DNA of 52,427 nucleotides, from assembly GCA_017484065.1 (NCBI GenBank), contig JAFUTX010000022.1, positions 1-52,427 on the forward strand, in the 5' to 3' direction. The translations under genes were made by a program, and so were the position numbers. A model generated the notes under the pieces. It had not been told where the DNA came from and did no database searches. It saw nothing but the letters and a program-made list of their open reading frames with translations. How positions within the stretch are numbered: position 1 is the stretch's first letter; each line of letters begins with the position of its first letter. Below, piece by piece: positions 2,734 through 47,056 of the stretch. The DNA comes from Bacilli bacterium. Its GTDB lineage: Bacteria > Bacillota_I > Bacilli_A > RF39 > UBA660.

Positions 2734-2815
2734 TGTTTACTCCTTACTATCTTCAATTTCATTGTATCAATTATTGGTATAAATTGTAAACCTTTTTTAC
2801 GTATATTAGACAAAA

Positions 2816-2838
2816 AAACTAGAGTGATTTTCTAGTTT
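2816..2838 (-). terminator. Intrinsic terminator after the DUF362 gene
   Basis: On the minus strand AAACTAGA and TCTAGTTT form an 8-bp stem around a 7-nt loop, followed by T7. It lies 14 nt past the stop at 2853 and separates this gene from prs. Confidence 0.8.
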
Positions 2839-2852
2839 CTCTTGGAAAATAT

Positions 2853-11326: not shown

Positions 11327-11437
11327 TTATAAACCTAATGTATATGGATTAGAACTTGTACCTGCTCCTCCTGTTATTGTAACTGTTGATTTTAAATATA
11401 GCGCTGGGCGAATTGCAAATACGCTATAGACATTAGT
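11327..11437 (-). pseudogene. Relict 3' end of a DGR-target-like gene
   Basis: About 33 codons ending VYSVFAIRPALYLKSTVTITGG and then AGTSSNPYTLGL align with the C-terminus of the target protein encoded at 17499-19052 (VRPVLYLKS, GTSSNPYQLS). The upstream sequence to about 11640 is AT-rich and stop-laden, with no N-terminal anchor, no body domain and no GC-rich variable segment. The open frame extends upstream to 11569 but that part has no similarity to the family. It is probably a decayed or recombined-away copy; the gap 11438-11644 otherwise shows nothing. Confidence 0.65.
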
Positions 11438-11644
11438 GACAATTATGAATTTTTTTATTTTCAATAATTTATAACAAAAATAAAAAATAGTAAAATACTT
11501 ATTTAAGACGAAATCATAAATAATAACACTTTTTATCATATTTAGATAAAATTCTAATAAAACTGCCACAATGTGCTTACGAAGTATTTTAGCCAGAAAT
11601 TACCCTGCATAAACTATATCTAACACTGCTATTTTCTTTATCGA

Positions 11645-12325
11645 CTACTTATTCTTTAATTCATCTTGCATATACTCAAAGTCTCTATATTTCCTATATT
11701 TATCATAATTAGAGATAATTTTATCAGTATTTCCTATTCGTTTTATTTGTCCTAGCTCTTTATCATTTAATAAAGAATAATCTCTGAATAAATAAAAATA
11801 TTCAAAAAAATCATTTTCTTCAATATTCATTTTATTATTTATTATAAAATCCATATTATTTACAACATCTTCGATTTGTCTATTTGATATTTTTTTATTA
11901 TACTCATCTAAAGACATAATCTTTTTTGCAGGATTACCGCAATATACTGAATTTGATTCAATATTTCCACTAACAATACTCCCAGCACCGATTATAACGT
12001 TATCCCCAATACATGTATTTTTTAACACAATTGAATTCATACCTATAAATACATTATTACCAATAGATACTCTACCAACATTCCCATACATTCTGTCATA
12101 CACAGAAGAAAGGACCGCCCAAGAATAATCATGAGTTAGTATTATAACTCCTCTTGTTATCATTACATTATTTCCAATTTTTATTAATTTAGGATTTTGA
12201 ATATCAATAATAGTGTTATCAGGATCAAATATTCGAAAATTATCACCTATAGTTATTCCTTTTTTCTTATAATATTCGATTTTTTTTAGACGTTTTTTTT
12301 CTTTACTCTGTTTAATAAATCTCAT
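11645..12325 (-). CDS. Left-handed beta-helix O-acetyltransferase (WbbJ-like)
   Basis: A 226-residue hexapeptide-repeat acyltransferase. Repeats run from IDIQNPKLIKIGNNVMI through VSIGNNVFIGMNSIVL, CIGDNVIIGAGSIV and SNSVYCGNPAKKI, the last being the usual end of the coil. HDYSW near residue 75 carries the probable catalytic His. The C-terminal ~70 residues form an extension without repeats. Expected to acetylate a sugar of the surface glycan using acetyl-CoA. It is the last gene of the glycan locus, 59 nt after the flippase gene. Confidence 0.82.
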   Translation of the reverse strand: MRFIKQSKEKKRLKKIEYYKKKGITIGDNFRIFDPDNTIIDIQNPKLIKIGNNVMITRGVIILTHDYSWAVLSSVYDRMYGNVGRVSIGNNVFIGMNSIVLKNTCIGDNVIIGAGSIVSGNIESNSVYCGNPAKKIMSLDEYNKKISNRQIEDVVNNMDFIINNKMNIEENDFFEYFYLFRDYSLLNDKELGQIKRIGNTDKIISNYDKYRKYRDFEYMQDELKNK

Positions 12326-12384
12326 CTACTTATAACCTCACTTTTATTTTTACTATTTTATATATTTTTATTTGCTCAATTAAA

Positions 12385-13932
12385 CTAATTTATAGATTTA
12401 TAATTATTTTGAATAGTCTTTTTATTTATAATTTTTTTTATTAATTTCATATAATATTTAAACTCAGCATTTTTCCTATATAATAAGTACATAGTTAAAT
12501 TAGGTACTATAAGACATATTAATCCATTAATGAAAAGTTGAATAGTTGATGAACTAATTATAAATATATTTGATATAAAATATGTACTTAACATAATAAT
12601 AATCGTCACCAACATATTTAATAATAACTCTTTATAATAATCTGCATAAGTTTTATTAAATAGTTTTTTATATACATATTTGGGATAGCTATAAAACCAT
12701 AGAACTAATCTACTAATTATTGTTCCTAAAAATACTCCTGCTAATCCAATTATTTTTAATAGTATTATTGAACAAAATAAATTTATTAGTATTTGCAGTA
12801 CAGGTATGTATTTATCATCAACCCATATTCCTGCTGCATCTTTAAAAATGTTATAAGAATTTCTCATCATATCTTGATAATAATTAGTAACTAATATTAT
12901 CGATACAAATTCACTAAGCAAATATTTATCACCAATCCATATCGATATAAAAGGCCTTATAAGCATAAATAAACATACTGATGTAAAAGTAGTAATCCAA
13001 AAATTAATAAAACTAATTTTTTTAAAAATTAAATAGTTTTTTTCGCAATCATTTTCTACAAGCAGGTTACCAATACTAGGCATAGTAGCATAGACAAAGT
13101 TTTGAAACAATTTTTTTATAGAAGATATTATATAATTATAATTTGTATATAATCCAACAGTTTTTATTCCGATAAATATTGATATTAATATATTATCTGT
13201 CCCATTAGTAACAGAACTTGATATTTTATGAATCATTAATGCTCTAACTTTATTGAAGATATCACTTTTTAATTCTGCATCAATGTTATAGTTATTTTTT
13301 TCTTTCATATATGGATAATCTTTATTCACTTTAATATTTATTATGATATTTTCTATAATTATACATACTATTTTTATTATTAAATATAAATAATAGTTTT
13401 TAGTAAAATATATTACAAATATTTGTGATATATTTAATACTATTATATATAATATATTAATTATATTTATAAAATAGTTTTTTTGATAAGCAAATAATAA
13501 ATTTCTTTTATAAGAAATAATATATGTTGAAATAGTAGTTAATAAAAATAATAAATATACTATTATTATATTAATATTAACAGTTATATCTTTTACTATA
13601 TATCTTAAAAATGGTATAAATAGTAATCCAATCATAAAAATCATAATAGAAATGATTCTGTAAGCTTTTTTATAAAAAGTCATTATCGATTTTATAGTTT
13701 TTATATCATTAACTTTTATATATTTATATAAATGATAATTAATTGCACTTCCTATTCCTAATTCAAACAAATTTAAAAACGTTAATATGTTTGTAAACAA
13801 TCCATTTAAACCATTGTATTCAATACCTAATATTTTTATAAATAATTTTTGAGCGATGAATAAGAAAACAAAATTTACAATAGTATTAACAAATGACATC
13901 ACAGAATTTTTTATAGAATATTTTGTTCTCAT
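12385..13932 (-). CDS. Polysaccharide flippase (Wzx/MATE-like)
   Basis: A 515-residue polytopic membrane protein with about 12-14 hydrophobic segments. It fits the oligosaccharide flippase family that moves undecaprenyl-linked repeat units across the membrane. The N-terminal block (SVMSFVNTIVNFVFLFIAQK, then GIEYNGLNGLFTNILTFLNL) is characteristic. The region VTNGTDNILISIFIGIKTVGLYTNY is a typical middle segment. It lies 2 nt downstream of the glycosyltransferase gene and is part of the same operon. Confidence 0.85.
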   Translation of the reverse strand: MRTKYSIKNSVMSFVNTIVNFVFLFIAQKLFIKILGIEYNGLNGLFTNILTFLNLFELGIGSAINYHLYKYIKVNDIKTIKSIMTFYKKAYRIISIMIFMIGLLFIPFLRYIVKDITVNINIIIVYLLFLLTTISTYIISYKRNLLFAYQKNYFINIINILYIIVLNISQIFVIYFTKNYYLYLIIKIVCIIIENIIINIKVNKDYPYMKEKNNYNIDAELKSDIFNKVRALMIHKISSSVTNGTDNILISIFIGIKTVGLYTNYNYIISSIKKLFQNFVYATMPSIGNLLVENDCEKNYLIFKKISFINFWITTFTSVCLFMLIRPFISIWIGDKYLLSEFVSIILVTNYYQDMMRNSYNIFKDAAGIWVDDKYIPVLQILINLFCSIILLKIIGLAGVFLGTIISRLVLWFYSYPKYVYKKLFNKTYADYYKELLLNMLVTIIIMLSTYFISNIFIISSSTIQLFINGLICLIVPNLTMYLLYRKNAEFKYYMKLIKKIINKKTIQNNYKSIN

Positions 13933-13934
13933 AT

Positions 13935-15050
13935 CTAATTATCCCAATCAATTTTGTTATATTTTTTAATCAAATTTAACGAATTTGAATTATTATATTT
14001 CTTAGTACCATAATAAATAAAATCTATAATACTATTATTTTCATAAAAATCTACATACCTCTTATATTCAGCACTTCCATTATAATAATTACCTTTATTA
14101 GCAATTTCTTTATATTTATTTAATTCTCCTGGTAAAAATTTATAATGTTTTAATATCAGATTACATTCAGTATTAATATTATTTTTATATGGATAAAGGA
14201 AATGAGATTTAATATAAATGTCTTTCTTTTTAAAATATACAAGTGGATATTTGGTTAAACAAGGAGATATATTAAATAACCTCTTTCTAGGTCCTCCACT
14301 TATATTGTAAAAAAGAGAAGATTTATTTTCAATATAAGAATCCGCATCAAAATAAATACAATTCTTATAATAATCCTTTATTTTTCCATTTGCATAATAA
14401 TCTTTATTGGCATACATATCTACCATAAGAGCTCTAGCTCTTATAATATTTTTTTTCTCACAGTAAGCAATAACATTTTTTATACTCTTATTTTCACATT
14501 CATTATATACTAATAATTCATCTGAATCAGCAATAAAATACCATCTATTATATCCATAATGTGCTATTATTCTATTAATCCATCCAACTCTTCTTGATGA
14601 TGTATAAGTTGTTTTAGTTTGAAGTAAAATTACATCTTTTTGTTTTAATAAATATTCAATACTGCCATCATTAGAATCATTATCTAAAATAATAAATTTA
14701 TCTATACCAAGTTTTCGATGATGAGATATAAATTTTTCTAATTTTATCAAATCATTTTTTTGAACACAAATTGCTATAATATCATTATCATAGACTTTCT
14801 CATTTTTTATTACACTTATATCAGCAGTCATAAAATCTCGAGCAACATTGATATATTCAGGATTAGAACATATTGCTTTATTAAATTTATTAATCCAATT
14901 CTTTTCATCGTTAATAGTTAAAAACTGTTTTTTATTTTGTATTAAAAGATAATTTAAATACTTTTTATAATCATGTATTTTAAAGATATATTTATGTTCT
15001 TTAAGAAAATTCTTTAATTGTTTTGGTATCAGTTTTTGGCATTTTAACAT
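13935..15050 (-). CDS. Glycosyltransferase, family 2-like (Glyco_tranf_2_4 type)
   Basis: A 371-residue protein whose GT-A core starts near residue 85: DIIAICVQKNDLIKLEKFISHH, FIILDNDSNDGS, and the acidic metal site YFIADSDELLVY. This arrangement, with a regular spacing of NDS and DSDE motifs, matches glycosyltransferases of the DUF23/GT92-like and Glyco_tranf_2_4 group. The N-terminal 80 residues are basic and unrecognised. No transmembrane helices. Donor and acceptor are unknown. It lies between a GT4 gene and the flippase, implying a role in building the repeat unit. Confidence 0.78.
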   Translation of the reverse strand: MLKCQKLIPKQLKNFLKEHKYIFKIHDYKKYLNYLLIQNKKQFLTINDEKNWINKFNKAICSNPEYINVARDFMTADISVIKNEKVYDNDIIAICVQKNDLIKLEKFISHHRKLGIDKFIILDNDSNDGSIEYLLKQKDVILLQTKTTYTSSRRVGWINRIIAHYGYNRWYFIADSDELLVYNECENKSIKNVIAYCEKKNIIRARALMVDMYANKDYYANGKIKDYYKNCIYFDADSYIENKSSLFYNISGGPRKRLFNISPCLTKYPLVYFKKKDIYIKSHFLYPYKNNINTECNLILKHYKFLPGELNKYKEIANKGNYYNGSAEYKRYVDFYENNSIIDFIYYGTKKYNNSNSLNLIKKYNKIDWDN

Positions 15051-15067
15051 ATAATATCTAATCCCTT

Positions 15068-16132
15068 CTATACTAAACCCCTATATATCTTTTCTAACTC
15101 TTTAGTAATATCTTTTATATCATAACCATTATTAATAGTATCTTTATAAGCATTTTCTCTTTTATAATATTTGATATTATTAATGGTATTCATCCATTTA
15201 ATAATATCATAATTATCTACTTTATAAAAGTTATTAGATATATTAGCATCACTTGGTACATTATTAGATACAACAACTGGTAAACCATTAGTTTGAGCTT
15301 CTATTGCTACTATTCCAAGTCCTTCATATAATGATGGAAACAAAAATACATCAAATGCATTTAATATTTCATTTATATTATCTCTAAAGCCTAAAAAGAT
15401 TACTTTATCATCTATATTTAATAATTTAACTTTATTTCTAATTGCATCTTCTAATTCACCACTACCAACTAGCAATAGTACTGCCTTATCATCTTTCTTT
15501 TGTATTTCATTAAATAAATCAATTAGAAATTCATGATTCTTTTGTTTAGAAAATCTCCCAACATGACCATATACTTTTTTATCTTCAATATTTAATTCTT
15601 TACGATATTTATTTCTAATTGATTTATTATATTTATATTTATCTATAGCAATACCATTTTTTAATAAGATTACATTATCAGTATTTGTATATAATGATTT
15701 AGTAGCAGCAAGTGAACAAGTTAACTTAATATCAATTAGTTTTAAATATAAAGGACTTAATATTTTCATTATTACTCTTCTTAACTTATTATAATTAATA
15801 GTATTATGAGAATGAGCTATAATATGTTTTATCCCACATAATTTAGCTATTAAAGCTACTTGAAAAGAAAATAAAAAAATAGCTGAATTAATATGAATAA
15901 TATCATATTTATTCTTTTTTAAATGTTTATATAAACGATAGTTATATACAATCTTTCCCTTGATAGATCTTCTATCACTATTAAGATTATAAACATTATC
16001 TTTATTATTAAATATATGTACTTGTGTAATATAATCAAATTTAATATCATTACTAATATTATTATCTATATCAGTTATTAATTTAGTTATACCACCATAA
16101 TTAAATCCATCAATTATTTGCAATACTTTCAT
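15068..16132 (-). CDS. Glycosyltransferase family 4
   Basis: A 354-residue GT-B enzyme. The N-terminal domain begins MKVLQIIDGFNYGGITKLI (acceptor side), and the nucleotide-sugar side shows YGHVGRFSKQKNHEFLIDLF, LLLVGSGELED, and the EX7E motif in FLFPSLYEGLGIVAIEAQ. GT4 enzymes are retaining, using UDP- or GDP-sugars. It shares one base with the preceding gene (16132, TAATG arrangement), indicating translational coupling. Confidence 0.9.
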   Translation of the reverse strand: MKVLQIIDGFNYGGITKLITDIDNNISNDIKFDYITQVHIFNNKDNVYNLNSDRRSIKGKIVYNYRLYKHLKKNKYDIIHINSAIFLFSFQVALIAKLCGIKHIIAHSHNTINYNKLRRVIMKILSPLYLKLIDIKLTCSLAATKSLYTNTDNVILLKNGIAIDKYKYNKSIRNKYRKELNIEDKKVYGHVGRFSKQKNHEFLIDLFNEIQKKDDKAVLLLVGSGELEDAIRNKVKLLNIDDKVIFLGFRDNINEILNAFDVFLFPSLYEGLGIVAIEAQTNGLPVVVSNNVPSDANISNNFYKVDNYDIIKWMNTINNIKYYKRENAYKDTINNGYDIKDITKELEKIYRGLV

Positions 16133-17088
16133 TATCTTTTACCTTTTACTTTCAAATACATATTTATAATAAACTTATATAATTTAGGACTAATTCTAAA
16201 TATAATAAGTCTTATTTTAAGATTTCTTCTCATTTTACATTTTAATATTTTTAAAGAAAATAATTTATTATATATAGTAATTATATTTTTTCTATTTAAA
16301 ACATCAATAACTTTTTTATTATTTCTTAAATATAATCTTGTAGTTAATTCTAAAATGCCAATATTATTTTCTATAAAGTTAGGATATACATTATTAATGT
16401 AATTATATCTTTCTAATGCTGCTTCATACATATCTATATTTCTCTGAACATCTTCTCTTTGCTTTCTACATATTCCAGCATCATTTTTTAAATAATAATA
16501 TTTAATTTGATTAGAATAAATAATATTATCAGTTTTCATAATCACTTTATGAGTTATGGCAATATCATTAACTTTTTTATTTTCAAATCTAATATCATCA
16601 TATAATTCTTTTTTGACAAGTTTATTCCAAGTAGCCACTGCATTATCTTCTACCAAAAAAACTTTTTTTAACATATCTTTAGCAGTTATTATATTAATTT
16701 GTTCTTCTTCATTTGTTACTTCAAATTCATAATTAAATATATCCTTTGACTTACATGTTACAAAATCACTATTATATTCTTTAGATAAATTATATAAGTA
16801 TTCTATTGTATCTAATTCTATAAAGTCATCAGCATCTATAAAATATAAATAATCTCCATTAGCATTATCTATCCCCACATTTCTAGATAAAGCTAGTCCC
16901 ATATTTTCTTGATTTATTATTTTAATTCTTTTATCTTTATAACCTTTACATATAGATAATGTTTTATCAGTTGATCCATCATTAACTATTATTATTTCTA
17001 AATCTTTATATGTTTGATTAACTACACTATCTAAACATTTCTTAATATATTTTTCTCCGTTATATACATTTATTATTACTGATACCAT
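16132..17088 (-). CDS. Glycosyltransferase family 2
   Basis: A 318-residue inverting GT-A enzyme: VSVIINVYNGEKYIKKCLDS, EIIIVNDGSTDKT, and LYFIDADDFIE as the metal-binding DxD region. Similar enzymes build capsule or teichoic-acid-like glycans. The C-terminal third is basic and helical. It is the first gene of the downstream glycan sub-operon (16132 to 11645), and its leader contains the hairpin at 17115-17142. The ATG is preceded by AAAGGAG. Confidence 0.9.
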   Translation of the reverse strand: MVSVIINVYNGEKYIKKCLDSVVNQTYKDLEIIIVNDGSTDKTLSICKGYKDKRIKIINQENMGLALSRNVGIDNANGDYLYFIDADDFIELDTIEYLYNLSKEYNSDFVTCKSKDIFNYEFEVTNEEEQINIITAKDMLKKVFLVEDNAVATWNKLVKKELYDDIRFENKKVNDIAITHKVIMKTDNIIYSNQIKYYYLKNDAGICRKQREDVQRNIDMYEAALERYNYINNVYPNFIENNIGILELTTRLYLRNNKKVIDVLNRKNIITIYNKLFSLKILKCKMRRNLKIRLIIFRISPKLYKFIINMYLKVKGKR

Positions 17089-17114
17089 TTAAATACTCCT
17101 TTATAATTTAGATA

Positions 17115-17142
17115 AAAGACTACTATAGCCATAGTAGTCTTT
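17115..17142 (-). terminator. Conserved CTACTAT hairpin: terminator or attenuator
   Basis: A perfect 12-bp stem around a 4-nt loop, followed on the minus strand by TTTTAT and on the plus strand by a longer T-rich run. It lies 27 bp before the GT2 start and downstream of the template repeat, so it could end the template RNA or attenuate the glycan sub-operon. Near-copies occur at 23301-23335 and 31578-31601. Confidence 0.6.
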
Positions 17143-17172
17143 CCCTTTTTATTTTTATACGCCGATTAACAG

Positions 17173-17221
17173 TTGTACGTATACCCCTGTGTACGTATAT
17201 TTCTTTTAGGGCAAAAGCCCA
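17173..17221 (-). other. Structured segment downstream of the DGR template
   Basis: Two adjacent hairpins: an arm pair at 17177-17184/17189-17196 (8 bp with one wobble, CCCT loop, extendable by three pairs) and GGGC-AAAA-GCCC at 17209-17220 with flanking CTTT/AAAG pairing. They lie between the template repeat and the hairpin at 17115, probably within the same transcript. A role in presenting the template RNA to the reverse transcriptase is speculative. Confidence 0.35.
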
Positions 17222-17282
17222 AAGATATGTTTTGTCCTTTATCCTGTTGACTATATAGCCTTGACCATATAATATCGAAGAC

Positions 17283-17396
17283 ATAAAGGGCTGGCGGACC
17301 GCATTCGCGTTATCGACGTTGTTGTTGTTCACGTTACCATCATTGTTCAGATTGGCAGCATTGTCAGAGTTGTTACCATCATTGGAATTCGGCGAT
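17283..17396 (-). repeat. DGR template repeat (TR)
   Basis: This 114-bp GC-rich segment aligns with the 3' part of the neighbouring target gene (17568-17682) with one indel. In the target's frame it reads SPNSNDGNNSDNAANL then NNDGNVNNNNVDNANAVR, an Asn-rich (AAC/AAT) stretch typical of DGR templates. Of 19 substitutions between the two copies over the aligned coding part, 18 fall at adenines of the template strand and one at a G. The conserved GCGGTCCGCC block at the 3' side corresponds to the homing (IMH-like) region. Short open frames across it are incidental. No promoter of its own is convincing; cotranscription with the target gene is likely. Confidence 0.92.
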
Positions 17397-17460
17397 TAAT
17401 AACAAACATACCTTACATTTATATAATTTTAATAAATGCCTTGTTAGTATAGATACGTCG

Positions 17461-17491
17461 GTGCCGGGACGACCTCGCCGTCCAGCGGCAC
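17461..17491. other. GC-rich hairpin/cruciform just past the DGR target gene
   Basis: GTGCCG and GGACG pair with CGTCC and CGGCAC to give an 11-bp stem with a 2-nt bulge and a 7-nt loop, in otherwise very AT-rich DNA, 7 nt beyond the stop codon at 17499. No T-run follows on the minus strand, so it is unlikely to be a terminator. In characterised DGRs a hairpin/cruciform beyond the variable repeat promotes target recognition, and this one has the right position. Confidence 0.75.
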
Positions 17492-17498
17492 ATATAGA

Positions 17499-19052
17499 TT
17501 ACGCACTTAGTTGATATGGATTAGAGCTTGTACCTTGACCGCCCACGATCTTCGTCGTCGACTTCAGATAAAGGACTGGGCGGACCGCATACGCGAGATC
17601 GACGTTGCTGGTGTACACGAGACCATAACCGTACAGACCGGCAGCACTGTCAGAGTCGTAACCATCATAGGAATCCGGCGATAAGAACCATTCATAATAA
17701 TCCGTATTTGTTGTACTTCCCAAAATCCAACTATTATATTTACATATTCTAGAGCCATACCCAGACAATTTATATGCTAAACATGCTGTTCGACTTGAAC
17801 TTGATTCTGCTGTAGATGTACTTGTTCCTGTTCCAGTTGCTACTGCTACACTAGAATTGCCTATTGAATATCCATAATCACTTGGATACATTAAGCCTAT
17901 ATTACTTGTTATGCTTGTTGGATTGTCATTATATACAGTACTACTTCTCTCAGCTGTATATGCTTGACTTGCTGTTAATTCATACCATCTAGCATCACCT
18001 AAATACCATGTTGCTGTATCTATTAAATTTTTGTTACTTAATGAATTATAATATGTTGTATTTAAATAATTATTTAATGTTGAATGTTCCCAGTTATTAG
18101 CAGCATATGTTGCTGTTTGTACTGATTTTGAACCTGTTGTATCTAATTCTCCTAATCTTACTACTGTATTTTCATTATTTAATAAATTGTTACTTACTCC
18201 ACTTGCACTTGTGTCGTTCCATTTCATTTGTTCTGCTAATGGTTCTGATCTCATTATCTTTATTCTTGTAGCATCATCTCCACTAGTTGTTCCTCCATCG
18301 ACATTATTCATTACTCCGATGATTTGCCATAGTTCATTATTAAATGATACATAGTTATTAGGTGTAGCTCCTACAAATCTTAAGTTATTATCTACTGTTC
18401 CATCAGATAATATATTATCATCAGTTGCTGCTAAATTAGTTATATATTGTGCTGCATTTACTGCTTGTACTGGCTCAGTTGTATTATATGCACTTATTGT
18501 TATCTTTCCACTATAACTTTTACTCATTTGTGTTGCAGGTGCATACTTATCTACCCATAGTCTTAATCTATAAGTTTTTGTATAGCCTTCGCTTCCTGCT
18601 GGTGCTAATACTCCATCTGTTAAAGCTCTTGCATCATCTGCTACATTACTATCTAATACTTGTGTACCGGTTTCATATGCTGATAATAATTGTACTGGAT
18701 TACTATCTAGTACTGCATTAATACTTGATAATGCTATTCTATTATTGTTTATTAAGCTTTCTAGATTTACTGTATATGCTACATATCCACTACATCTATT
18801 TGTTAATGTAAATTGATATCCTTCTAGGCTCATTCCTTCTTCATCACTTATTGGATAAGTCTTTTGTAGCTTTACTCCTGTTTTACTTGCTTCTGTATCT
18901 GTTAAGCTTAAACTTAAACATGTTGTTCCTACTACGTTTTCATCGCTTTGGGTTTGTCTTGTTGTCCAATATGCGTATGACCCACTTACTACTAATAATG
19001 CAACTAGGAACACTGCTGCTATTATGTAGTATTTTTTCTTGTTGTTTTCCAT
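17499..19052 (-). CDS. DGR-diversified surface protein with lectin-like C-terminus
   Basis: A 517-residue protein. Residues ~6-28 form a membrane anchor or signal (YYIIAAVFLVALLVVSGSYAYW). Residues ~30-195 are a beta-rich, Thr/Ser-rich region like camelysin/TasA-type proteins. From ~205 a second domain (NNYVSFNNELWQIIGVM) leads to the C-terminal variable segment at residues ~458-495, ending AVRPVLYLKS. The WFLSP start and VRP end of the variable part match C-type-lectin/FGE-like folds in known DGR targets. The 3' end is GC-rich while the rest is AT-rich. The start follows GAGAGGAAAG. It is predicted to display a hypervariable binding face outside the cell. Confidence 0.88.
   Translation of the reverse strand: MENNKKKYYIIAAVFLVALLVVSGSYAYWTTRQTQSDENVVGTTCLSLSLTDTEASKTGVKLQKTYPISDEEGMSLEGYQFTLTNRCSGYVAYTVNLESLINNNRIALSSINAVLDSNPVQLLSAYETGTQVLDSNVADDARALTDGVLAPAGSEGYTKTYRLRLWVDKYAPATQMSKSYSGKITISAYNTTEPVQAVNAAQYITNLAATDDNILSDGTVDNNLRFVGATPNNYVSFNNELWQIIGVMNNVDGGTTSGDDATRIKIMRSEPLAEQMKWNDTSASGVSNNLLNNENTVVRLGELDTTGSKSVQTATYAANNWEHSTLNNYLNTTYYNSLSNKNLIDTATWYLGDARWYELTASQAYTAERSSTVYNDNPTSITSNIGLMYPSDYGYSIGNSSVAVATGTGTSTSTAESSSSRTACLAYKLSGYGSRICKYNSWILGSTTNTDYYEWFLSPDSYDGYDSDSAAGLYGYGLVYTSNVDLAYAVRPVLYLKSTTKIVGGQGTSSNPYQLSA
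17568..17682 (-). repeat. DGR variable repeat (VR) in the target gene
   Basis: Encodes SPDSYDGYDSDSAAGLYGYG then LVYTSNVDLAYAVR. Compared with the template, Asn codons are replaced by Tyr, Asp, Ser, Gly, Leu and Thr codons through A-to-N changes (for example AAC to CTC, AAT to GGT). The invariant codons (S, P, D, V, A, R) are shared. The homing-like block differs slightly between the copies (one base pair and one indel), as IMH and IMH* differ elsewhere. Confidence 0.92.
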
Positions 19053-19080
19053 ATTACTTTCCTCTCTATTTTACTTCTTT

Positions 19081-19109
19081 AATATAACATATTTTAATCT
19101 TATATACAA
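19081..19109 (-). promoter_or_regulatory. Promoter of the DGR target gene
   Basis: On the minus strand TTGTAT, a 17-bp spacer, then TATATT, about 30 bp before the start codon. It may also drive the template RNA by readthrough, since the template lies about 100 bp past the target stop. Confidence 0.5.
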
Positions 19110-19172
19110 TTATTTTTTTATCTATTTTACAATTAATTAAAAAAATTATTGTGGGAGGTTTTAATATACCCA

Positions 19173-19296
19173 TTGAACATTTTTTCCGAGTTTTATTGAA
19201 CAATATTACTTTTAGGGTACGAAAAAGTTGGGGTATTAACATTTTGACAAGATAGATGTTATCTCGTATTTTCTACCTCATCCCAAAATTTTTTTC
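19173..19296. repeat. Left direct repeat of ATPase cassette A with two 23-bp units
   Basis: Two TTGAAC-type units start at 19173 and 19196 (23 bp apart). They are followed by a segment containing TTTTAGGGTACGAAAAAGTT, TTAACATTTTGACAAGATA and a TATCTCGTA block, ending CCCAAAAT. The same ordered elements in the same orientation recur at 20735-20896 on the other side of the ATPase gene. It occupies most of the gap between the target gene promoter and the ATPase terminator. Confidence 0.8.
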
Positions 19297-19310
19297 TTAT
19301 TGTATAAAAA

Positions 19311-19330
19311 AACTCTAGAAATAATCTAGA
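19311..19330 (-). terminator. Intrinsic terminator after ATPase A
   Basis: On the minus strand two TCTAGA copies pair around a short AT loop and are followed by T7. It sits 12 nt past the stop codon. Confidence 0.7.
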
Positions 19331-19341
19331 ACTTTCTTATA

Positions 19342-20634
19342 TTATGGTTTTAAGGCTGTAATAGGTAATATATAAATATCTGTTTCTGGATCTTTAATAA
19401 TTGCTGACCAAAGTCCACATATTATACATCTGAATTTTGGTTTAACTTTAACTTCATTTAAAAAGTTATTTAAACTAATCTTAGCATCATCTATTTCATT
19501 AGCACCCAACTTAATTTCTATAGCTCCATACTCTCCATCAGGAAGTTCAACAATAGCATCAACTTCTAATCCAGTTTTATTATTTCGATAATGATATATC
19601 TTTCCACCTAGACTTTCAATATATATACGTAAATCTCTTTCTACTAAAGATTCAAACATAAAACCAAAAGTTTTAATATCATTTACAAGTTTATCTTTAG
19701 TTATTCCAAGTGCTGCACAAGCAAGTGAAGGGTCAGTAAAGTGCCTTTTGGCACTTTTTCCGACATTATCTCTTGAGCGTAAATTAGTGGAGTACGCTTC
19801 TTGATTTTCTATTAAATATAATTTAGTAAGAACATTTAAATAATCTAATAAAGTATTTCTGCTTAATTGATAATCTTTATTAGTGGTAAATTCTTCTACA
19901 TCTGATAACAAAGTATTATTATTGACAATAGTACTTTCGTTTCTAGCTAACGATTTAAATAACATATTCATTTTATTAATATCTCTATTAACACCATCTT
20001 TATTAATATCATGATTTATAACAGCATTTAAATAACTTTTTGGTAAAACATGAATAACTTCATCATCTGTATCTAAATTTTCTGGCCATCCTCCACGAAC
20101 AATATATTTAGCTAAATCCTCTAAAACCACTTTATTAGTAGTATAGTTTTTCTGAGTACCATCAAATAATTTTGATAGCGAAGCTTGTCCTGATGATTCT
20201 CCTGATTCATATAAACTCATCGAATACATTTTCATTTTATCAATTCTACCTGCACCTGAATGATGTATTTTTTCCTCATCTTCTTTTTTTCTTAAGGTAG
20301 TAGATTCTGTTAGAATATATTTGCCTCTTATTTTATCTTTGTCGCAACGATGTCTTACTGCATCCCATATCTCTGGTACTTCTCCCCATTCATCAATCAA
20401 TTCTGGATATTCCTCATTTAAAATAATAGATACATCCATTTTAGCTTTTGCTCTAGTATCAAAATTTTCTGTACTATCATCTAAATAAATAGCTGAATTT
20501 GCATGATTTTTAGCCGTCCATGTTTTTCCACACCACTTTGGGCCTTCTAAACTTATTGCGCCAAAAATTTTTAAATATTGTTTTATTTTTTCATCAATAA
20601 TCCTTTTTTTATAACCATCTTCTGTTAATGCCAT
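19342..20634 (-). CDS. AAA ATPase with DUF4143-type C-terminus (cassette A)
   Basis: A 430-residue protein. Walker A is GPKWCGKTWT (residues ~31-40), Walker B-like residues lie in YPELIDEWGEVPEIWD, and an arginine-finger-type GAGRI follows. The C-terminal half has the DUF4143/nuclease-like core, with RDLRIYIESLGG and GLEVDAIVELPDGEYGAIEIKLG giving an E/D...ExK pattern. It is a clear paralog of the protein at 24065-25333, but the sensor segment ILTGSATP of that protein is ILTESTTL here. Function of the family is unknown; toxin, defence and mobile-element roles have been suggested. It sits inside the glycan locus between direct repeats. Confidence 0.8.
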   Translation of the reverse strand: MALTEDGYKKRIIDEKIKQYLKIFGAISLEGPKWCGKTWTAKNHANSAIYLDDSTENFDTRAKAKMDVSIILNEEYPELIDEWGEVPEIWDAVRHRCDKDKIRGKYILTESTTLRKKEDEEKIHHSGAGRIDKMKMYSMSLYESGESSGQASLSKLFDGTQKNYTTNKVVLEDLAKYIVRGGWPENLDTDDEVIHVLPKSYLNAVINHDINKDGVNRDINKMNMLFKSLARNESTIVNNNTLLSDVEEFTTNKDYQLSRNTLLDYLNVLTKLYLIENQEAYSTNLRSRDNVGKSAKRHFTDPSLACAALGITKDKLVNDIKTFGFMFESLVERDLRIYIESLGGKIYHYRNNKTGLEVDAIVELPDGEYGAIEIKLGANEIDDAKISLNNFLNEVKVKPKFRCIICGLWSAIIKDPETDIYILPITALKP

Positions 20635-20688
20635 AGTTAGTCACCTCCATTATAATGTATCATATTTTAAATAAAAGCACAATACCTG

Positions 20689-20763
20689 TTGAACATTTTT
20701 TCTGGGTTTTGTTGAACATTTTTTCCAGATTTTATTGAACATTTTTTCTGGGTTTTGCTGAAC
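20689..20763. repeat. Four 23-bp iterons upstream of ATPase A
   Basis: TTGAACATTTTTTC-type units begin at 20689, 20712, 20735 and 20758 (the last shortened to CTGAAC), an exact 23-bp period. They lie about 55 bp before the ATPase start codon. They are candidate operators, perhaps bound by the ATPase itself. Confidence 0.85.
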
Positions 20764-20896
20764 AAATTAAATGTTAACATTGCTTTTAGGGTATGAAAAA
20801 GTTGGGATATTAACATTTTGACAAGATATTTCTGCTTATTTTTAACGTTTTGACGAGATAGGTACTATCTCGTACTTTCTACACTCTCCCAAAATG
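20735..20896. repeat. Right direct repeat of ATPase cassette A
   Basis: Repeats the ordered elements of 19173-19296 and adds a second TTAACGTTTTGACGAGATA copy plus the palindrome CGAGATAGGTACTATCTCG (arms of 8 bp around a 3-nt centre). The last 30 bp are also the 3' end of the adjacent glycosyltransferase gene and supply its stop codon. Confidence 0.75.
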
Positions 20897-22010
20897 GTTT
20901 ATTTTGGTTTGTTATTTTTTTAAATACTGCTATTAACTGTGCTACTATTAACATACAATAATATAATGAAAAATTAAATAATTTATTATCTATATTAAAT
21001 ATCCATTTTAATATAGCCATTAAATATACTAATATTTGAAATAATAACGGTATATAGTATATTGGATAATAAAATACTAATATACTATTTGTTATTAATA
21101 ATAATAAATGAGCTAACCATAATAAATATCTAGATGTTCTATGACCTAAATAAAAGTATGTAAACCACTTATATTTAAATACATTTAATATTTTAATAGA
21201 TGGTAATATAAATGATAATACTATTCTAGATATTCTAACTTTTCTTTGAAATTCATCTTTTATACTTACGGTAGCTAATTCATATGCAATGGCATTATGA
21301 TTAGCTATAGCTCTCTTACTATTTAATGCATAATATAAAGGCATAGATGAATCATGACAATTAATTGGATTAAAATCATAATAATCTTTAGTTTTAACTG
21401 CATATAATGCCCCATTACCTGCCGTTATAGTTTGAATATTAGATTCAATCTCTCTTACTTTAGTATCAATATCCCAATAAGTATTTTCTACATTATTTTC
21501 ATCAGTAACATACACTAGTTTACCTGTTACATAAGCTACATCTTTAGTAAAAGATGATACTAGTTCTCTTATTGCATCTTCCTTTAACATAGCATTAGCG
21601 TCTGTCATAACTAGTATTTCACTTTTAACTGTTTTAGCTGCTTCATTTTGGGCATTAGTTTTACCCATTCTTTCTTTAACTATAAATAATCTAATATTAT
21701 TCTTTTTATGTTTCTTAATATATTCTAGAACTATTTTATTAGTATCATCTGTACTATTATCAGATGATACTAATATTTCTAACTTATCTTTTGGATAATC
21801 AACTTTTAAAATATTATCTAATTTTTTCTTTATTACTTTTTCTTCATTATGTGCTACTACCATAATAGTAACTGTTGGTTCATAGTCCTTTAATTTATTA
21901 TTCTTTCTTTTTATTATTTTAGCTAATAATAAAACTGATAATGGATATCCTACATTAGCCCATACTATAATAAAAACTGATATCCATAATATTATTTGTA
22001 ATGCAATCAT
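20865..22010 (-). CDS. Membrane glycosyltransferase family 2
   Basis: A 381-residue processive-type GT2. There is an N-terminal transmembrane helix (ALQIILWISVFIIVWANVGY), a GT-A domain with TIMVVAHNEEKVI, ILVSSDNSTDDT and VMTDANAM as the metal-binding motif, a QxxRW-like region at EFQRKVRISRIVL, and three or so C-terminal transmembrane helices. Such enzymes add or polymerise sugars at the inner membrane face. The last residues (FWESVESTR) and the stop codon come from the ATPase cassette repeat, so the C-terminus may have been altered by insertion. It lies 6 nt after the pglD-like gene. Confidence 0.83.
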   Translation of the reverse strand: MIALQIILWISVFIIVWANVGYPLSVLLLAKIIKRKNNKLKDYEPTVTIMVVAHNEEKVIKKKLDNILKVDYPKDKLEILVSSDNSTDDTNKIVLEYIKKHKKNNIRLFIVKERMGKTNAQNEAAKTVKSEILVMTDANAMLKEDAIRELVSSFTKDVAYVTGKLVYVTDENNVENTYWDIDTKVREIESNIQTITAGNGALYAVKTKDYYDFNPINCHDSSMPLYYALNSKRAIANHNAIAYELATVSIKDEFQRKVRISRIVLSFILPSIKILNVFKYKWFTYFYLGHRTSRYLLWLAHLLLLITNSILVFYYPIYYIPLLFQILVYLMAILKWIFNIDNKLFNFSLYYCMLIVAQLIAVFKKITNQNKPFWESVESTR

Positions 22011-22016
22011 ATTAAC

Positions 22017-22649
22017 CTACTTCTGTTTCTTGATACTATTAATAGTATTAATAAATGTACAATTAGTATCATTTATATCCTTTATAATAGTAGCTCCTGC
22101 TGCTATTATATTCCAACTATTTATAGTAATATTATTAATTATTGTAACACCAGTACATATCCATGTACCTTCTTTTATTATAACTGTTCCTGCTAAATGA
22201 GCTCCAGGAGAGATATGAACATAATCTTCTAAATTATTATCATGATCTAAAGATGCACTAGTATTTACTATACAATGTTTACCTATTCTAGCTCCCGGAT
22301 TGATAACTACTCCAGCCATAATTGTAGTACCTGCATCTATTTCTACTTCATTACCAATTACAGCATTTGGATGAATTGCTGTATAATACTTAAGATTAGG
22401 ATATTGATTAGCTATTTTTTTTCTAATCTCGTTATCACCTATTCCAATAATGAAATAGCAATCATTATATTTATTAATAATATCTTGATTAATTGTTCCT
22501 AAAACCTTTTTATTATCAAAAATAACCATATCTTGTTTATCTAGATTATCATCTAAGAATCCAACTAATTGATCATTAGAATTAACAACTATATCAGCAA
22601 TTACTTTAGCATGTCCTCCAGCTCCTATTATAATTACTTTCTTTTGCAT
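22017..22649 (-). CDS. pglD: PglD-like sugar N/O-acetyltransferase
   Basis: A 210-residue NeuD/PglD family enzyme. The N-terminal Rossmann part is KVIIIGAGGHAKVIADIV (residues ~4-21). The C-terminal left-handed beta-helix repeats contain AIHPNAVIGNEVEIDAGTTI, the catalytic His in VNTSASLDHDNNL, and HISPGAHLAGTVII. In the bacillosamine pathway PglD acetylates the 4-amino group of UDP-4-amino-4,6-dideoxy-GlcNAc. The start overlaps the pglC-like gene by 16 nt, so the two are translationally coupled. The symbol is assigned from the neighbouring pathway set, not from experiment. Confidence 0.8.
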   Translation of the reverse strand: MQKKVIIIGAGGHAKVIADIVVNSNDQLVGFLDDNLDKQDMVIFDNKKVLGTINQDIINKYNDCYFIIGIGDNEIRKKIANQYPNLKYYTAIHPNAVIGNEVEIDAGTTIMAGVVINPGARIGKHCIVNTSASLDHDNNLEDYVHISPGAHLAGTVIIKEGTWICTGVTIINNITINSWNIIAAGATIIKDINDTNCTFINTINSIKKQK

Positions 22650-23257
22650 TTATCTTTTCTCACCTCATCCAAGTATGTCATAGCAATATTCCCATTATTA
22701 ATATTTCTTCCTTTAAACATAATTTTAATTGTTTTTAAAATTACGTTTAAATCATTAATAAATGAAATATTATTAACATATTCTAAATCAAGTTTAAACT
22801 TATCATCCCAACTTAGAGAATTTCTACCAGATGATTGAGCAAGTCCAGTAAGACCTGGTCTAACATCATGCCTATGATGTTCCTCTTTTGTATAATAAGG
22901 AAGATATTTAACAAGAAGTGGTCTAGGTCCAATAAAGCTCATAGACCCCATTAATATATTAAACATTTGTGGTAATTCATCTAATGATGTTCTACGTAAA
23001 AAATCTCCAAATTTAGTATGTCTTAATTCATCTGGTAATAAATTACCTTCTTTATCTTTTTTATTAGTCATTGTTCTAAATTTATATATATTAAAAATCT
23101 TTTCATCTTTACCAGGACGTTCTTGTTTAAATAAAATAGGCCTACCAATAAAAACAAGCATTAAAATAGCAATTATTATATATACTGGCAATAAAAGAAT
23201 TAATGCTATTAATGAAAATGTAATATCCAAAATACGTTTAAAATACTTTCTATACAT
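22634..23257 (-). CDS. pglC: PglC-like initiating phosphoglycosyltransferase
   Basis: A 207-residue monotopic phosphoglycosyltransferase. One membrane-entering hairpin helix lies at residues ~10-33 (ITFSLIALILLLPVYIIIAI), followed by KQERPGKDEKIFNIYKFRTM, the catalytic Asp-Glu pair in RRTSLDELPQ, and FIGPRPLLV with RPGLTGLAQ. It transfers a sugar phosphate from a UDP-sugar to undecaprenyl phosphate, the first membrane step. With PglD, PglE and PglF here, di-N-acetylbacillosamine-1-P is a likely donor. The leader contains the hairpin at 23301-23335. Confidence 0.88.
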   Translation of the reverse strand: MYRKYFKRILDITFSLIALILLLPVYIIIAILMLVFIGRPILFKQERPGKDEKIFNIYKFRTMTNKKDKEGNLLPDELRHTKFGDFLRRTSLDELPQMFNILMGSMSFIGPRPLLVKYLPYYTKEEHHRHDVRPGLTGLAQSSGRNSLSWDDKFKLDLEYVNNISFINDLNVILKTIKIMFKGRNINNGNIAMTYLDEVRKDKCKRK

Positions 23258-23300
23258 AATATCCCTACTTCTATATTAATTATAATATATTATTATATAA

Positions 23301-23335
23301 AAAAGCTACTATTATTAATCACAATAGTAGCTTTT
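23301..23335 (-). terminator. Conserved CTACTAT hairpin in the pglC leader
   Basis: A 13-bp perfect stem with a 9-nt loop, followed on the minus strand by a T-run, 44 bp before the pglC start. It shares the CTACTAT/ATAGTAG core with the hairpins at 17115 and 31578. It may end transcription from the truncated ATPase gene or attenuate the pgl unit. Confidence 0.6.
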
Positions 23336-23355
23336 AATATTTTTTTAGATAAATA

Positions 23356-23898
23356 TTAACATAAGTCTTTAATTAAAAATGTTGCATATAATGGTACGGA
23401 TTTTATTTTTGTTTCTGGATTATACCCAAAATCTTTTGTACTTATTCTTATCATATATTTTGGATGATATAATTCATCATATACTTTTAAACTTTTAGAT
23501 TGAGTATTATCATTTGCTTTAACCTCGATTGGTATTATTCCATCGTTGCTTGTAGTTATTAAAAAATCTACTTCTGCTTCCCTACTACCTTTCCAATATA
23601 ATAGGTCAAGACCATTTGATTTCAATTGATTAGCAACATAGTTTTCAGTAATTATTCCTTTATATATTTTCATATCATCTAATAGTATATCCTTAACATC
23701 ATTATTCACTATCCTGTTAAAAATACCGACATCAGAATAATAAGTTTTAAAAGTTTCATTTATATTATTAACATGATTATTCATATCATTTTTATAGTCT
23801 TCTATTATATCATCATAATTATAATATTCATCATTAGTTTTTATTAACTCTTTTACACTTTCTGGTATTCCACCAGTTAATAAATATTTTTTATAATG
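23356..23898 (-). pseudogene. Truncated AAA/DUF4143 ATPase, C-terminal fragment
   Basis: The frame opens after a TAA at 23899-23901 and reads KYLLTGGIPESVKELI, then DVGIFNRIV, and EAEVDFLI...IPIEVKAND with the usual DUF4143 ending SVPLYATFLI. The longest ATG-initiated part starts at 23784 (142 residues). The Walker motifs and about half of the usual ~400 residues are missing. The break lies next to the GCACC repeat array, suggesting deletion of the 5' part. It belongs to a DUF4143 branch different from the two intact ATPases here. Confidence 0.8.
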
Positions 23899-23907
23899 TT
23901 AACACAA

Positions 23908-23980
23908 ATTGCACCTTTTTGCACCCACTTTTACATAAAAATTGCACCTTTTTGCACCCACTTTTTACAATAAGGTGCAC
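23908..23980. repeat. GCACC repeat array beside the truncated ATPase
   Basis: Two copies of ATTGCACCTTTTTGCACCCA begin at 23908 and 23941, each with two GCACC motifs 10 bp apart. An inverted GGTGC copy follows near 23974. Each copy ends in CTTTT(T)ACA. The position, at the 5' border of a broken DUF4143 gene, parallels the repeats at the two intact genes. Confidence 0.75.
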
Positions 23981-24003
23981 ATTTTTACGGGAACTTTTGC
24001 TTT

Positions 24004-24022
24004 TATTGGTAAAAAATCAAAG
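24004..24022. repeat. Left repeat of ATPase cassette B
   Basis: A single TATTGGTAAAAAATCAAAG unit, 41 bp past the ATPase B stop codon, in the same orientation as the two units upstream of the gene at 25363 and 25386. Confidence 0.75.
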
Positions 24023-24064
24023 ATTTAATACTTTCTAAAGCTTAGTTATTAAAATAATAGCCGC

Positions 24065-25333
24065 CTATGGTTTTAAGGCGGTTATTGGAATAACATATAT
24101 TCCATCTTCTCTTTTATAAATAGCATTACTTAATCCACAAATTACACAAAGAAATTTAGGCTTTTTTTCAACTATTTCATTAAATTTTAATAAGTTTGTA
24201 GCAGCTTCATCAATTTTATCAGTTCCCAATTTTATTTCTATTGCCCCATAATCTCCATTAGCTAATTCTAATATTGAATCTATTTCTAAGCCACTTATAT
24301 TATCTCTAAAATGAAATATATTGCCTTTCATACTTTCAATATAAATTCTTAAATCTCTTTCTACTAATGCTTCGAATAAAAATCCTAAAAAGTTAAAATC
24401 GTTTAATAATTTTTCTTCTGTCAAATTAAGGACTGCACAAGCAAGTGATGGATCAGTAAAATGCCTTTTAGCTGATTTTCCAACTCTTCCACTAGAACGC
24501 AGATTAGTACTAAATGCCGGTTGATTTTCAAGAATAGATAATTTTTCTAAAACATCAATATAATCTAAAATAGTATTTTTACTAGCTATGTCTTCAACAT
24601 CATTTACATCATTAATTATTGTACTATCATTTACTATTGTACTTTCATTTCTAGCTAGTGAACGCATAATTCTTCTCATCTTATTTATATCCCTATTTAC
24701 ACCATCAATTGCAGATATATCATGTTTTAAAACATCTTCTAAATAATTATAAGATAAATCTAATGCTTGTTCTTGAGTAAGATTTATAGCCTCCGGCCAC
24801 CCACCACGTATAATGTATTTAATTAAATCTTGTAATTCTACATCAGCAGTTAATTGATTATTAACTGTGTTATTAAACAAATCCTCTACAGTAATTAATC
24901 CTTGTGATTCTCCAGACTCATACAAAGACATTGTATACATTTTTATTCGAGCAATACGCCCTGCACCAGAATGATGAATGTCTTTATCATTAGGAGTAGC
25001 AGAGCCAGTTAAAATATATTTACCTTTTATATTGTCTTCATCACATTTAAATCGAACAGCATCCCATATAGCTGGGACTTCTTGCCATTCATCTATAAGT
25101 TCTGGATATTCTTTATTCATTATCAATTCAACGTTGGCATCGGCTAATCTCTTATCATTAAAATTGTTAGCAGTATTATTTAAATAAACAACTGAATTAG
25201 CATGATTTAAAGCAGTCCATGTTTTACCACACCATTTGGGGCCTTCTATACTTACAGCACCAAAAATTTTTAGATAATCAGCTATTTTCGAATCAATAAT
25301 TCTTTGTTTATAGCCATTCTTTGTTAATTTCAT
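24065..25333 (-). CDS. AAA ATPase with DUF4143-type C-terminus (cassette B)
   Basis: A 422-residue paralog of the ATPase at 19342-20634, colinear along its whole length. Walker A is GPKWCGKTWT, the Walker B region YPELIDEWQEVPAIWD, sensor-like ILTGSATP is intact, and GAGRIARIKMYTMSL follows. The C-terminal domain contains RDLRIYIESM and GLEIDSILELANGDYGAIEIKLG. No transmembrane segment. It interrupts the pgl operon between pglE and pglC and is bordered by TATTGGTAAAAAATC repeats. It has the usual length for the family; the biological role is unknown. Confidence 0.82.
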   Translation of the reverse strand: MKLTKNGYKQRIIDSKIADYLKIFGAVSIEGPKWCGKTWTALNHANSVVYLNNTANNFNDKRLADANVELIMNKEYPELIDEWQEVPAIWDAVRFKCDEDNIKGKYILTGSATPNDKDIHHSGAGRIARIKMYTMSLYESGESQGLITVEDLFNNTVNNQLTADVELQDLIKYIIRGGWPEAINLTQEQALDLSYNYLEDVLKHDISAIDGVNRDINKMRRIMRSLARNESTIVNDSTIINDVNDVEDIASKNTILDYIDVLEKLSILENQPAFSTNLRSSGRVGKSAKRHFTDPSLACAVLNLTEEKLLNDFNFLGFLFEALVERDLRIYIESMKGNIFHFRDNISGLEIDSILELANGDYGAIEIKLGTDKIDEAATNLLKFNEIVEKKPKFLCVICGLSNAIYKREDGIYVIPITALKP

Positions 25334-25362
25334 TATATATCACCACTATAATAATACACTTC

Positions 25363-25404
25363 TATTGGTAAAAAATCAAGGTTTTTATTGGTAAAAAATC
25401 AAGA
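25363..25404. repeat. Two 23-bp-spaced units upstream of ATPase B
   Basis: TATTGGTAAAAAATCAAG occurs at 25363 and 25386, spaced exactly 23 bp, between the ATPase B start and the pglE stop codon. The period equals that of the unrelated iterons at cassette A. Confidence 0.85.
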
Positions 25405-25407
25405 TTA

Positions 25408-26544
25408 TTAAAAACAACTCTTAATAGTTTCAATAATAATTTCTTGTTCATCAATAGTCATTTTAATATCAGAAGGTAGACATATTCCACGTTTAAATAA
25501 ATCAGTTCCAACATCACTATCTTCATTAGAAACAAATATATTATCTTTAAATAATGGTTGAAGATGCATTGGTTTCCAAAGATGTCTACCTTCTGCATTA
25601 ATGTTATTTAAAGCTTCTAATAAACATTGTGGAGTAACATCAACATCACTATTAATAATCATACATGATAACCAATAATTAGGTTCACTATTTACTAAAT
25701 CAATTGGATTCATTTGTATTGGTAAATCTTTAAATCCTTCTTTGTATCTTTCATAAATAGCTTTTTTTAATGCTATGTGTTCTTCAAGGTAATTAAGTTG
25801 TCCTCTTACTACTCCTGCTATGACATTACTCATCCTATAATTGTATCCAATCATAGTATGTTCATACCAATTAACATTTTCTTTAGCTTGAGTTGACCAT
25901 TTTTTAGCTTTTTCCGCTGCTTCTTTAGAATCTGTTAATAACATACCACCGCTAGAACCAGTTATAATTTTATTACCATTAAATGAAATACAATTATAAT
26001 CACCAAAAGTACCTGTTTGTTTTCCTTTATAAGTTGCTCCTAAACTTTCAGCTGCATCTTCAACTAATATGGCATTATGTTTTTTACATATTTCTTTTAT
26101 CTTATCTAATTTAGCTGGAGTTCCATATAGATTAGCAACAACAACTAACTTTACATCAGGATATAATAAAAATGCTTTTTCTAACATATCTGGATCCATA
26201 TTCCAAGTATCATATTCAGTATCTATAAATATAGGAGTTGCATGTTCATATAGTACTGGATTAACAGTTGCTATAAAAGTTAAATCTGAACAAAATACTC
26301 TATCACCTGCTTTTATTCCTGCAAGTTTTATAGCTAAATGAAGAGCACTAGTACCACTAGATAATGCTACTGCATACTTACTACCTGTTTTTTCACAAAC
26401 TATTTTTTCTACTTCATTTATATTAGCTCCAACTGTACTCATCCAATTAGTATTATAAGCTTCCTCCATATACTTTAATTCATCACCATGCATTGTTGGC
26501 GATGATAACCATACCTTTTTTGAAAAAGGTTTAATCTCTTTCAT
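25408..26544 (-). CDS. pglE: PglE-like sugar aminotransferase (DegT/DnrJ/EryC1/StrS)
   Basis: About 378 residues; PLP-dependent. The N-terminus IKPFSKKVWLSSPTMHGDELKY is typical of PglE. ALSSGTSALHLAIKLAG binds the cofactor phosphate, VEDAAESLGATYKGKQTGTFG contains the conserved Asp, and the Schiff-base Lys is in FNGNKIITGSSGG. It would aminate the UDP-4-keto-6-deoxy sugar made by PglF. The frame opens at GTG 26556 but ATG 26544 is better placed; either way the start overlaps pglF. The 3' end is followed directly by ATPase cassette B, which separates it from pglC and pglD. Confidence 0.86.
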   Translation of the reverse strand: MKEIKPFSKKVWLSSPTMHGDELKYMEEAYNTNWMSTVGANINEVEKIVCEKTGSKYAVALSSGTSALHLAIKLAGIKAGDRVFCSDLTFIATVNPVLYEHATPIFIDTEYDTWNMDPDMLEKAFLLYPDVKLVVVANLYGTPAKLDKIKEICKKHNAILVEDAAESLGATYKGKQTGTFGDYNCISFNGNKIITGSSGGMLLTDSKEAAEKAKKWSTQAKENVNWYEHTMIGYNYRMSNVIAGVVRGQLNYLEEHIALKKAIYERYKEGFKDLPIQMNPIDLVNSEPNYWLSCMIINSDVDVTPQCLLEALNNINAEGRHLWKPMHLQPLFKDNIFVSNEDSDVGTDLFKRGICLPSDIKMTIDEQEIIIETIKSCF

Positions 26545-29717: not shown

Positions 29718-29789
29718 TATACACCTTCTATTTTAATAAAATTATATCATGTATATTATTAAATAGTAAACTAATATGCTTTATTATTT

Positions 29790-46862: not shown

Positions 46863-46945
46863 ATTGTTATAATGCAATGACGAACGGATTCGATTGGCTA
46901 CCAACTCCACGAAGAACTTTAACAGATGACTTAAGGTATGCTACT

Positions 46946-47056
46946 GGCCGCACGCCGAAACCGTTATTCGTGCCGCCGCTGTCGACACTGCCGTTAGGGT
47001 ACACACGAGCCACACTGTACGTATCACCAGCACGCGGAGTCATTGTCCATTGCCAG
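46946..47056 (-). repeat. Second variable repeat (VR2), template not in window
   Basis: The GC-rich 3' segment encodes MTPRAGDTYSVARVYPNG then SVDSGGTNNGFGVRP, in the same place as the variable repeat of the first target. It does not match the template at 17283-17396 at many non-adenine positions, so it needs a different template. Boundaries are approximate. Confidence 0.6.

Follow-up and report, generated by a model that had tools for sequence, protein, structure and literature searches.

The diversity-generating retroelement (DGR) of Bordetella phage BPP-1 brings together adenine mutagenesis between a template repeat (TR) and a variable repeat (VR), an Avd protein, a DGR reverse transcriptase (RT), a C-type-lectin-like target and a hairpin downstream of VR, the role of the hairpin in that system having been described (PMC3240598). 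The locus considered here is like the BPP-1 element in each of these respects. Unlike it, the present locus belongs to a cellular host, a gut bacterium, its RT does not adjoin TR, the RT gene contains a group II intron, and the hairpin lies 89 nt from the VR core as opposed to 4-34 nt in the phage element.

Dispersal of DGR parts in a genome has precedents. In Thiohalocapsa PB-PSB1 the parts are scattered, some loci are incomplete and trans action has been proposed (PMC10907252), and in cyanobacteria remote DGR targets are known (PMC7517822). The dispersal seen here is similar, but those genomes combine remote targets or incomplete loci with intact cassettes, and PMC10907252 nowhere uses the word "intron". 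Group II introns, for their part, can home to sites within other group II introns or within the ORFs of these, according to the portion of PMC4424553 that cites Dai and Zimmerly 2003, and introns so placed are described in Thermosynechococcus (PMC2882425). In those cases, as is inferred here, site-specific homing puts an intron inside an RT-bearing element; their hosts, however, are other group II introns, themselves selfish, whereas here the intron occupies the active site of a DGR RT, an enzyme in the service of the cell. The closest maturases in a plasmid collection (about 50% identity) belong to group II introns of Bacillaceae plasmids such as NZ_CP011009, and the one record of that type examined has an annotated maturase gene without a DGR RT around it, unlike the present case.

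Trans action, incomplete DGR loci and group II introns within group II introns or their ORFs are already known. A search of open papers, which did not extend to preprints or to most subscription papers, gave no earlier report of an intron inside a DGR RT. DGRs are commonly imagined as compact cassettes whose RT is intact. In the present case the template is apart from the RT, which would be made only by splicing, so that systems of this kind would be overlooked or wrongly classified by pipelines that look for a TR with an intact RT next to it.

An adenine-specific repeat pair and its target gene

The stretch of DNA analysed, hereafter the window, is the complete contig C24 of 52,427 bases. The features of the repeat pair and its surroundings are as follows.

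17499-19052, minus strand: target gene, an open reading frame of 517 amino acids with VR near its 3' end
17581-17680, minus strand: VR core
17568-17580, minus strand: 3' end of the VR homology, likely the homing (IMH) block, with its TR counterpart at about 17283-17294
17461-17491, minus strand: GC-rich hairpin after the target stop codon (17450-17505 folds at -22.2 kcal/mol)
17295-17394, minus strand: TR core, the homology running on to about 17283 beyond a 1-nt indel
17115-17294, minus strand: 3' part of the TR RNA with a terminator hairpin (about 17115-17142), similar to a segment in the sister species G001

The two cores align without gaps over 100 nt at an offset of 286 and differ at 19 positions, 18 of which are template adenines; 18 of the 34 template adenines are changed as against 1 of the 66 other positions (Fisher p = 1.1e-9). 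The substitutions comprise eight A>G, seven A>T, three A>C and a single G>T. When VR is taken as the template none of its 16 adenines differs, which makes the direction from TR to VR unambiguous. TR is the downstream, non-coding copy. VR precedes it by 286 nt in the direction of coding and is the coding copy, in which AAY (Asn) codons of TR have become codons for Tyr, Asp, Ser, Gly, Leu and Thr. A 1-nt indel falls immediately 3' of the core, within a CCGCC/CCGCCC block. A preliminary description of this DNA had listed the same 19 differences with 18 at template adenines, one G>T change and one indel in a homing-like block as the only others, and the same replacements of Asn codons; recounting the minus-strand core and comparing the codons reproduced all of these, and its repeat boundaries (17283-17396 and 17568-17682) are right to within a few bases.

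In a repeat search the pair was the longest direct repeat of the window, and a scan confined to non-adenine positions gave no further match in the window or in the related loci then in hand. Given its substitution pattern, the pair at 17295-17394 and 17581-17680 is a genuine TR/VR pair of a DGR, and this TR is the only one found in the assembly. The single non-adenine difference suggests that some time has elapsed since the last homing. The likely IMH block, CCGCC-AG-CCTTTAT with the indel, is common to VR and TR, and genes at C30, C15:36044 and C19 share the stretch that runs from this block to beyond the stop codon.

The target protein begins with a hydrophobic segment, read as a membrane anchor, and ends in a DUF6273-type domain (E=6.5e-5, slightly below the curated cut-off). 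An AlphaFold model built on 19 paralogues from the same genome (pLDDT 76.6) resembles in fold the N-terminal portion of the Thomasclavelia ramosa IgA peptidase (IgAse), with a Z of 15.6 over 205 residues at 3.1 A, after which nearly all fold matches are to C-type lectins and to Treponema denticola variable protein 1, with Z of about 5. A Z of 5 alone is weak, but the consistency of the matches supports a C-type-lectin-like fold. The DGR criterion of a VR at the 3' end of a C-type-lectin-like target is thus met, with only moderate support for the fold. In the coding direction the target stop codon is followed by the GC-rich hairpin, TR and the terminator, and the hairpin is found again behind three paralogous target genes and in G001. 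The TR RNA had no match in Rfam, and the exact TR string was absent from viral contigs.

A reverse transcriptase gene split at its catalytic motif

The preliminary description had also read the repeats as a DGR. That reading is borne out by the adenine-specific pair, by a DGR-type RT and Avd homologue in the genome, by the layout in G001 and by 38 related loci, but it was incomplete, as the whole 52,427-base contig contains no RT and the RT gene found elsewhere is cut by a group II intron. In the whole assembly an RVT_1 search had matches at a single place, the end of contig C15, where a DGR RT encloses an intron RT. The operon there encodes a MutS-I-like protein and an Avd homologue, both upstream of the RT. 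The Avd assignment rests on the PHROG family 'Avd protein of DGR' (E=1.7e-9), Pfam bAvd (5.6e-6) and NCBIfam DivGenRetAVD (2.1e-8, below its cut-off), while the MutS_I match is marginal (E=0.0017). As a criterion for DGRs Avd is common although not universal, and it is met here. TR and RT are at least 17 kb apart, and the criterion of a canonical contiguous cassette, with the RT within a few kb of TR, is not met. Judged by its sequence the system is nonetheless a DGR, though not a canonical contiguous cassette.

The reading frame of the C15 RT ends directly after ...YYIRYMD; a 1.9-kb group II intron splits the gene there, before the last D of the catalytic YMDD motif. Rfam matches to domains D1-D4 (RF02005, 139.9 bits) and DV-DVI (RF00029, 53.3 bits), both above gathering, flank a 431-aa maturase/RT on either side (TIGR04416, 329 bits; cut-off 300). 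Excision of 1,914 nt, from GUGCG to CUACUCGAU, joins TATATGGATG to ACTTTATTTT and restores YMDDF, and this exact removal yields a DGR RT of 361 aa. The predicted spliced product carries IGNMTSQ and YMDD, the DGR-clade RT motif being (I/V/L)GxxxSQ (PMC3521204). The intron ends fit the group II rule of GUGYG at the 5' and AY at the 3' end. Each of the four introns available in full has, at the corresponding place, an EBS1 (C[AG]UCCA) that pairs along its whole length with IBS1 UGGAUG, the sequence of the Met-Asp codons of the YMDD motif. The best solved relative of the spliced RT is a reverse transcriptase, 8ub7 (5e-22), presumably that of the BPP-1 DGR. Ribozyme domains, maturase, ends, EBS1-IBS1 pairing and the empty sites described below together identify the insertion as a group II intron; its splicing is inferred.

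One intron lineage and the proposed working of the split element

A search for the exon-intron junction found this intron lineage in 5 of 385 genomes of the order, belonging to four genera (G000, G364, G216, G430 and G399), at the same nucleotide of the DGR RT in all five. The whole element is readable in four of them, with both RT exons open and an in-frame join between YMD and D each time. The maturases are 65-86% identical and the host RTs only 28-51%; for G216 and G430 the values are 86% and 33%, an indication that the intron has moved between DGR RTs and has not only been inherited. Intron-bearing hosts are scattered in the RT tree, and close relatives carry precise empty sites: G149 has an uninterrupted RT (88% identity over 700 nt) whose sequence is the same as that of G399 for the 40 nt leading up to the junction. 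Two further, fragmentary copies occur in G001 as the last 29 nt of the intron followed by exon 2 at contig ends, the exon halves being on different contigs. Long intron similarity was not found in G001, where both contigs that carry exon 2 break off within the intron, leaving only these pieces visible.

The search by junction carries a bias, since introns at any other site escape it. In an unbiased maturase search of 193 genomes the C15 copy itself was the sole close match, the others being at most 47% identical. Other maturases of the family (44-47% identity) were considered and had no matching intron junction in a DGR RT. Elsewhere in the class the junction was found only in G000 among 395 sampled genomes, and viral contigs held neither junction strings nor a maturase relative. 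RTs broken at similar places in G178, G184 and G052, examined for introns, appear instead to be decayed or deleted copies. One of them, in G178 (L108, 8400-9500), is a DGR RT with an internal deletion across the catalytic motif, still beside a TR, and represents a decayed DGR.

The window and C15 probably form a working split DGR, with template and target in the window, the RT on C15 and splicing required before the RT can act. In copying the TR RNA (17115 to about 17410) the DGR RT would place random bases at the adenines, and the resulting cDNA would take the place of VR in the gene for the lectin-like surface protein. The RT, Avd and MutS-I-like proteins would act in trans, from genes at least 17 kb away on C15. 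Given that the RT gene is interrupted between YMD and D by a group II intron that carries its own maturase/RT, the mRNA would encode an active DGR RT only once exactly spliced, and diversification would depend on group II splicing. The intron lineage may persist by homing to the conserved codons of the DGR RT active site, a place where the host enzyme would not survive an inexact removal of the intron. The TR/VR pattern, operon content, intron boundaries and domains, EBS1-IBS1 pairing, conserved exons and empty sites can be read directly from the DNA; transcription, splicing, trans action, the pairing of this TR with the C15 RT, homing and present activity are inferred only, in the absence of RNA data. 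It is conceivable, if rather unlikely, that the lineage is specialised for the active-site codons of DGR RTs and that regulated splicing provides on/off control of diversification; if so, one retroelement would gate another.

Whether the split RT is still used bears on another reading, that the DGR was active in the past, that insertion of the intron inactivated its RT and that the TR/VR pair is a fossil beside decaying exons. The one non-adenine difference between the repeats would fit such a history, as would the existence of decayed DGR RT copies in related genomes and the ameliorated look of several paralogous VR-like regions. Against it, both exons are open and in frame, the exon halves are intact in all four genomes with a fully readable element, and omega, compared between G000, G364 and the two G001 copies, is 0.26 and 0.40 for exon 1 and 0.28-0.48 for exon 2, reaching 1 in at most 0.7% of bootstrap resamples. 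As Nei-Gojobori estimates made on AT-rich codons that are partly saturated, these values are to be trusted for direction more than for size, and on this measure the exons flanking the intron are under purifying selection. Further, intron-bearing RTs with an Avd homologue stand beside TR/VR pairs that are adenine-only in their best windows in G216 (19 adenine changes), G399 (15) and G430 (8), with no other change. Constrained exons and such pairs together favour a spliced, working RT over a dead one, which leaves inactivation by the intron quite unlikely, although in single cases a recent insertion after the last homing is possible.

That TR is served instead by some other RT, unassembled or on a mobile element, with the C15 RT unrelated to it, is distinctly improbable. 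Only one DGR RT was found in the genome, and both it and the TR flank match a single cassette in G001, where one contig holds target, hairpin, TR, MutS-I-like gene, Avd and RT. The 3' segment of the TR RNA is 80% identical over 144 nt to the segment adjoining the RT operon in G001, and RT exon 1 of C15 is 71% identical to that of G001, which supports pairing this TR with the C15 RT. The genome is, however, a draft, 93% complete in 32 contigs that break near repeats; no TR was seen beside the C15 operon up to the contig end, and as C15 ends 156 nt upstream of the operon there remains room for a second TR close to the RT. In 37 of the 38 related loci that have a TR/VR pair, no more than about 2.3 kb separates TR from RT, so that on the preferred reading of a split DGR the present arrangement, with TR and RT separated, is an outlier.

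An ordinary duplication of a gene fragment with a base bias arising by chance, to which two near-identical stretches 286 nt apart might point, merits virtually no credence and is already contradicted by the data, since 18 of 19 changes are at template adenines, none is at a VR adenine (p=1e-9) and the same signature recurs at 38 related RT loci, where pairs are adenine-only or nearly so and the selected windows hold 577 adenine against 9 other changes. In all, 80 related RT loci were scanned and 39 had matches, with adenine as the template base in 43 pairs, T (on the opposite strand) in one and G in four, three of the latter being real pairs read backwards. Four contigs titled Candidatus Saccharibacteria from ruminant gut (L220, L223, L227 and L232) also carry related DGR RTs at 39-42% identity, with TR/VR pairs that are adenine-only or nearly so; their titles suggest exchange across phyla or a binning error.

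For a split DGR that depends on splicing, the presence of one and the same intron at the catalytic site of DGR RTs that share only about 30-50% identity amounts to a natural experiment in whether diversification tolerates the intron or is controlled by it. As spliced mRNA would be readable in metatranscriptomes, a clear test is possible.

Paralogous target-type genes and neighbouring elements

The target-type C-terminal domain occurs at 31 places in the genome, one of them elsewhere in the window.

46867-48393, minus strand: paralogous target-type gene, its VR-like region with a GC of 0.58 as against 0.33 in the rest of the domain

The VR-like region of this gene is GC-rich with C-ending codons and has no matching TR in the assembly. 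Among 19 domains compared, the VR-like regions range from a GC of 0.60 with many C-ending codons down to 0.24, the rest of the domains being at about 0.3 with few C-ending codons. Perhaps recent and long-retired DGR targets coexist, to judge by this gradient. The window gene at 17499-19052 alone matches the only TR found, and no second TR for the paralogous VR-like genes was detected by an A-masked pattern, by comparison of VR DNA with the genome itself or by local scans.

Several minor features of the surroundings deserve mention. From about 11600 to 31500 the target lies among many genes of glycosyltransferase and sugar-nucleotide type, named by reading their sequences, in what resembles a surface polysaccharide cluster. 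A remnant of a target-type C-terminus (RPALYLKS...GTSSNPYTL) is present at 11327-11569, the rest of the gene being absent. Repeated intergenic blocks at 19166-19294 and 20682-20900, about 70-92% alike, flank a gene at 19342-20634 that has a similar copy at 24065-25333, and the whole is possibly a mobile unit. Outside the window, a similar element of about 80 nt (CAGTTTTAG..AACGATTTTTA) lies directly behind two target-type genes, in L023 (about 230-330) and in L021 (after 1344), and in L023 a transposase-like gene is found nearby (2521-3630).
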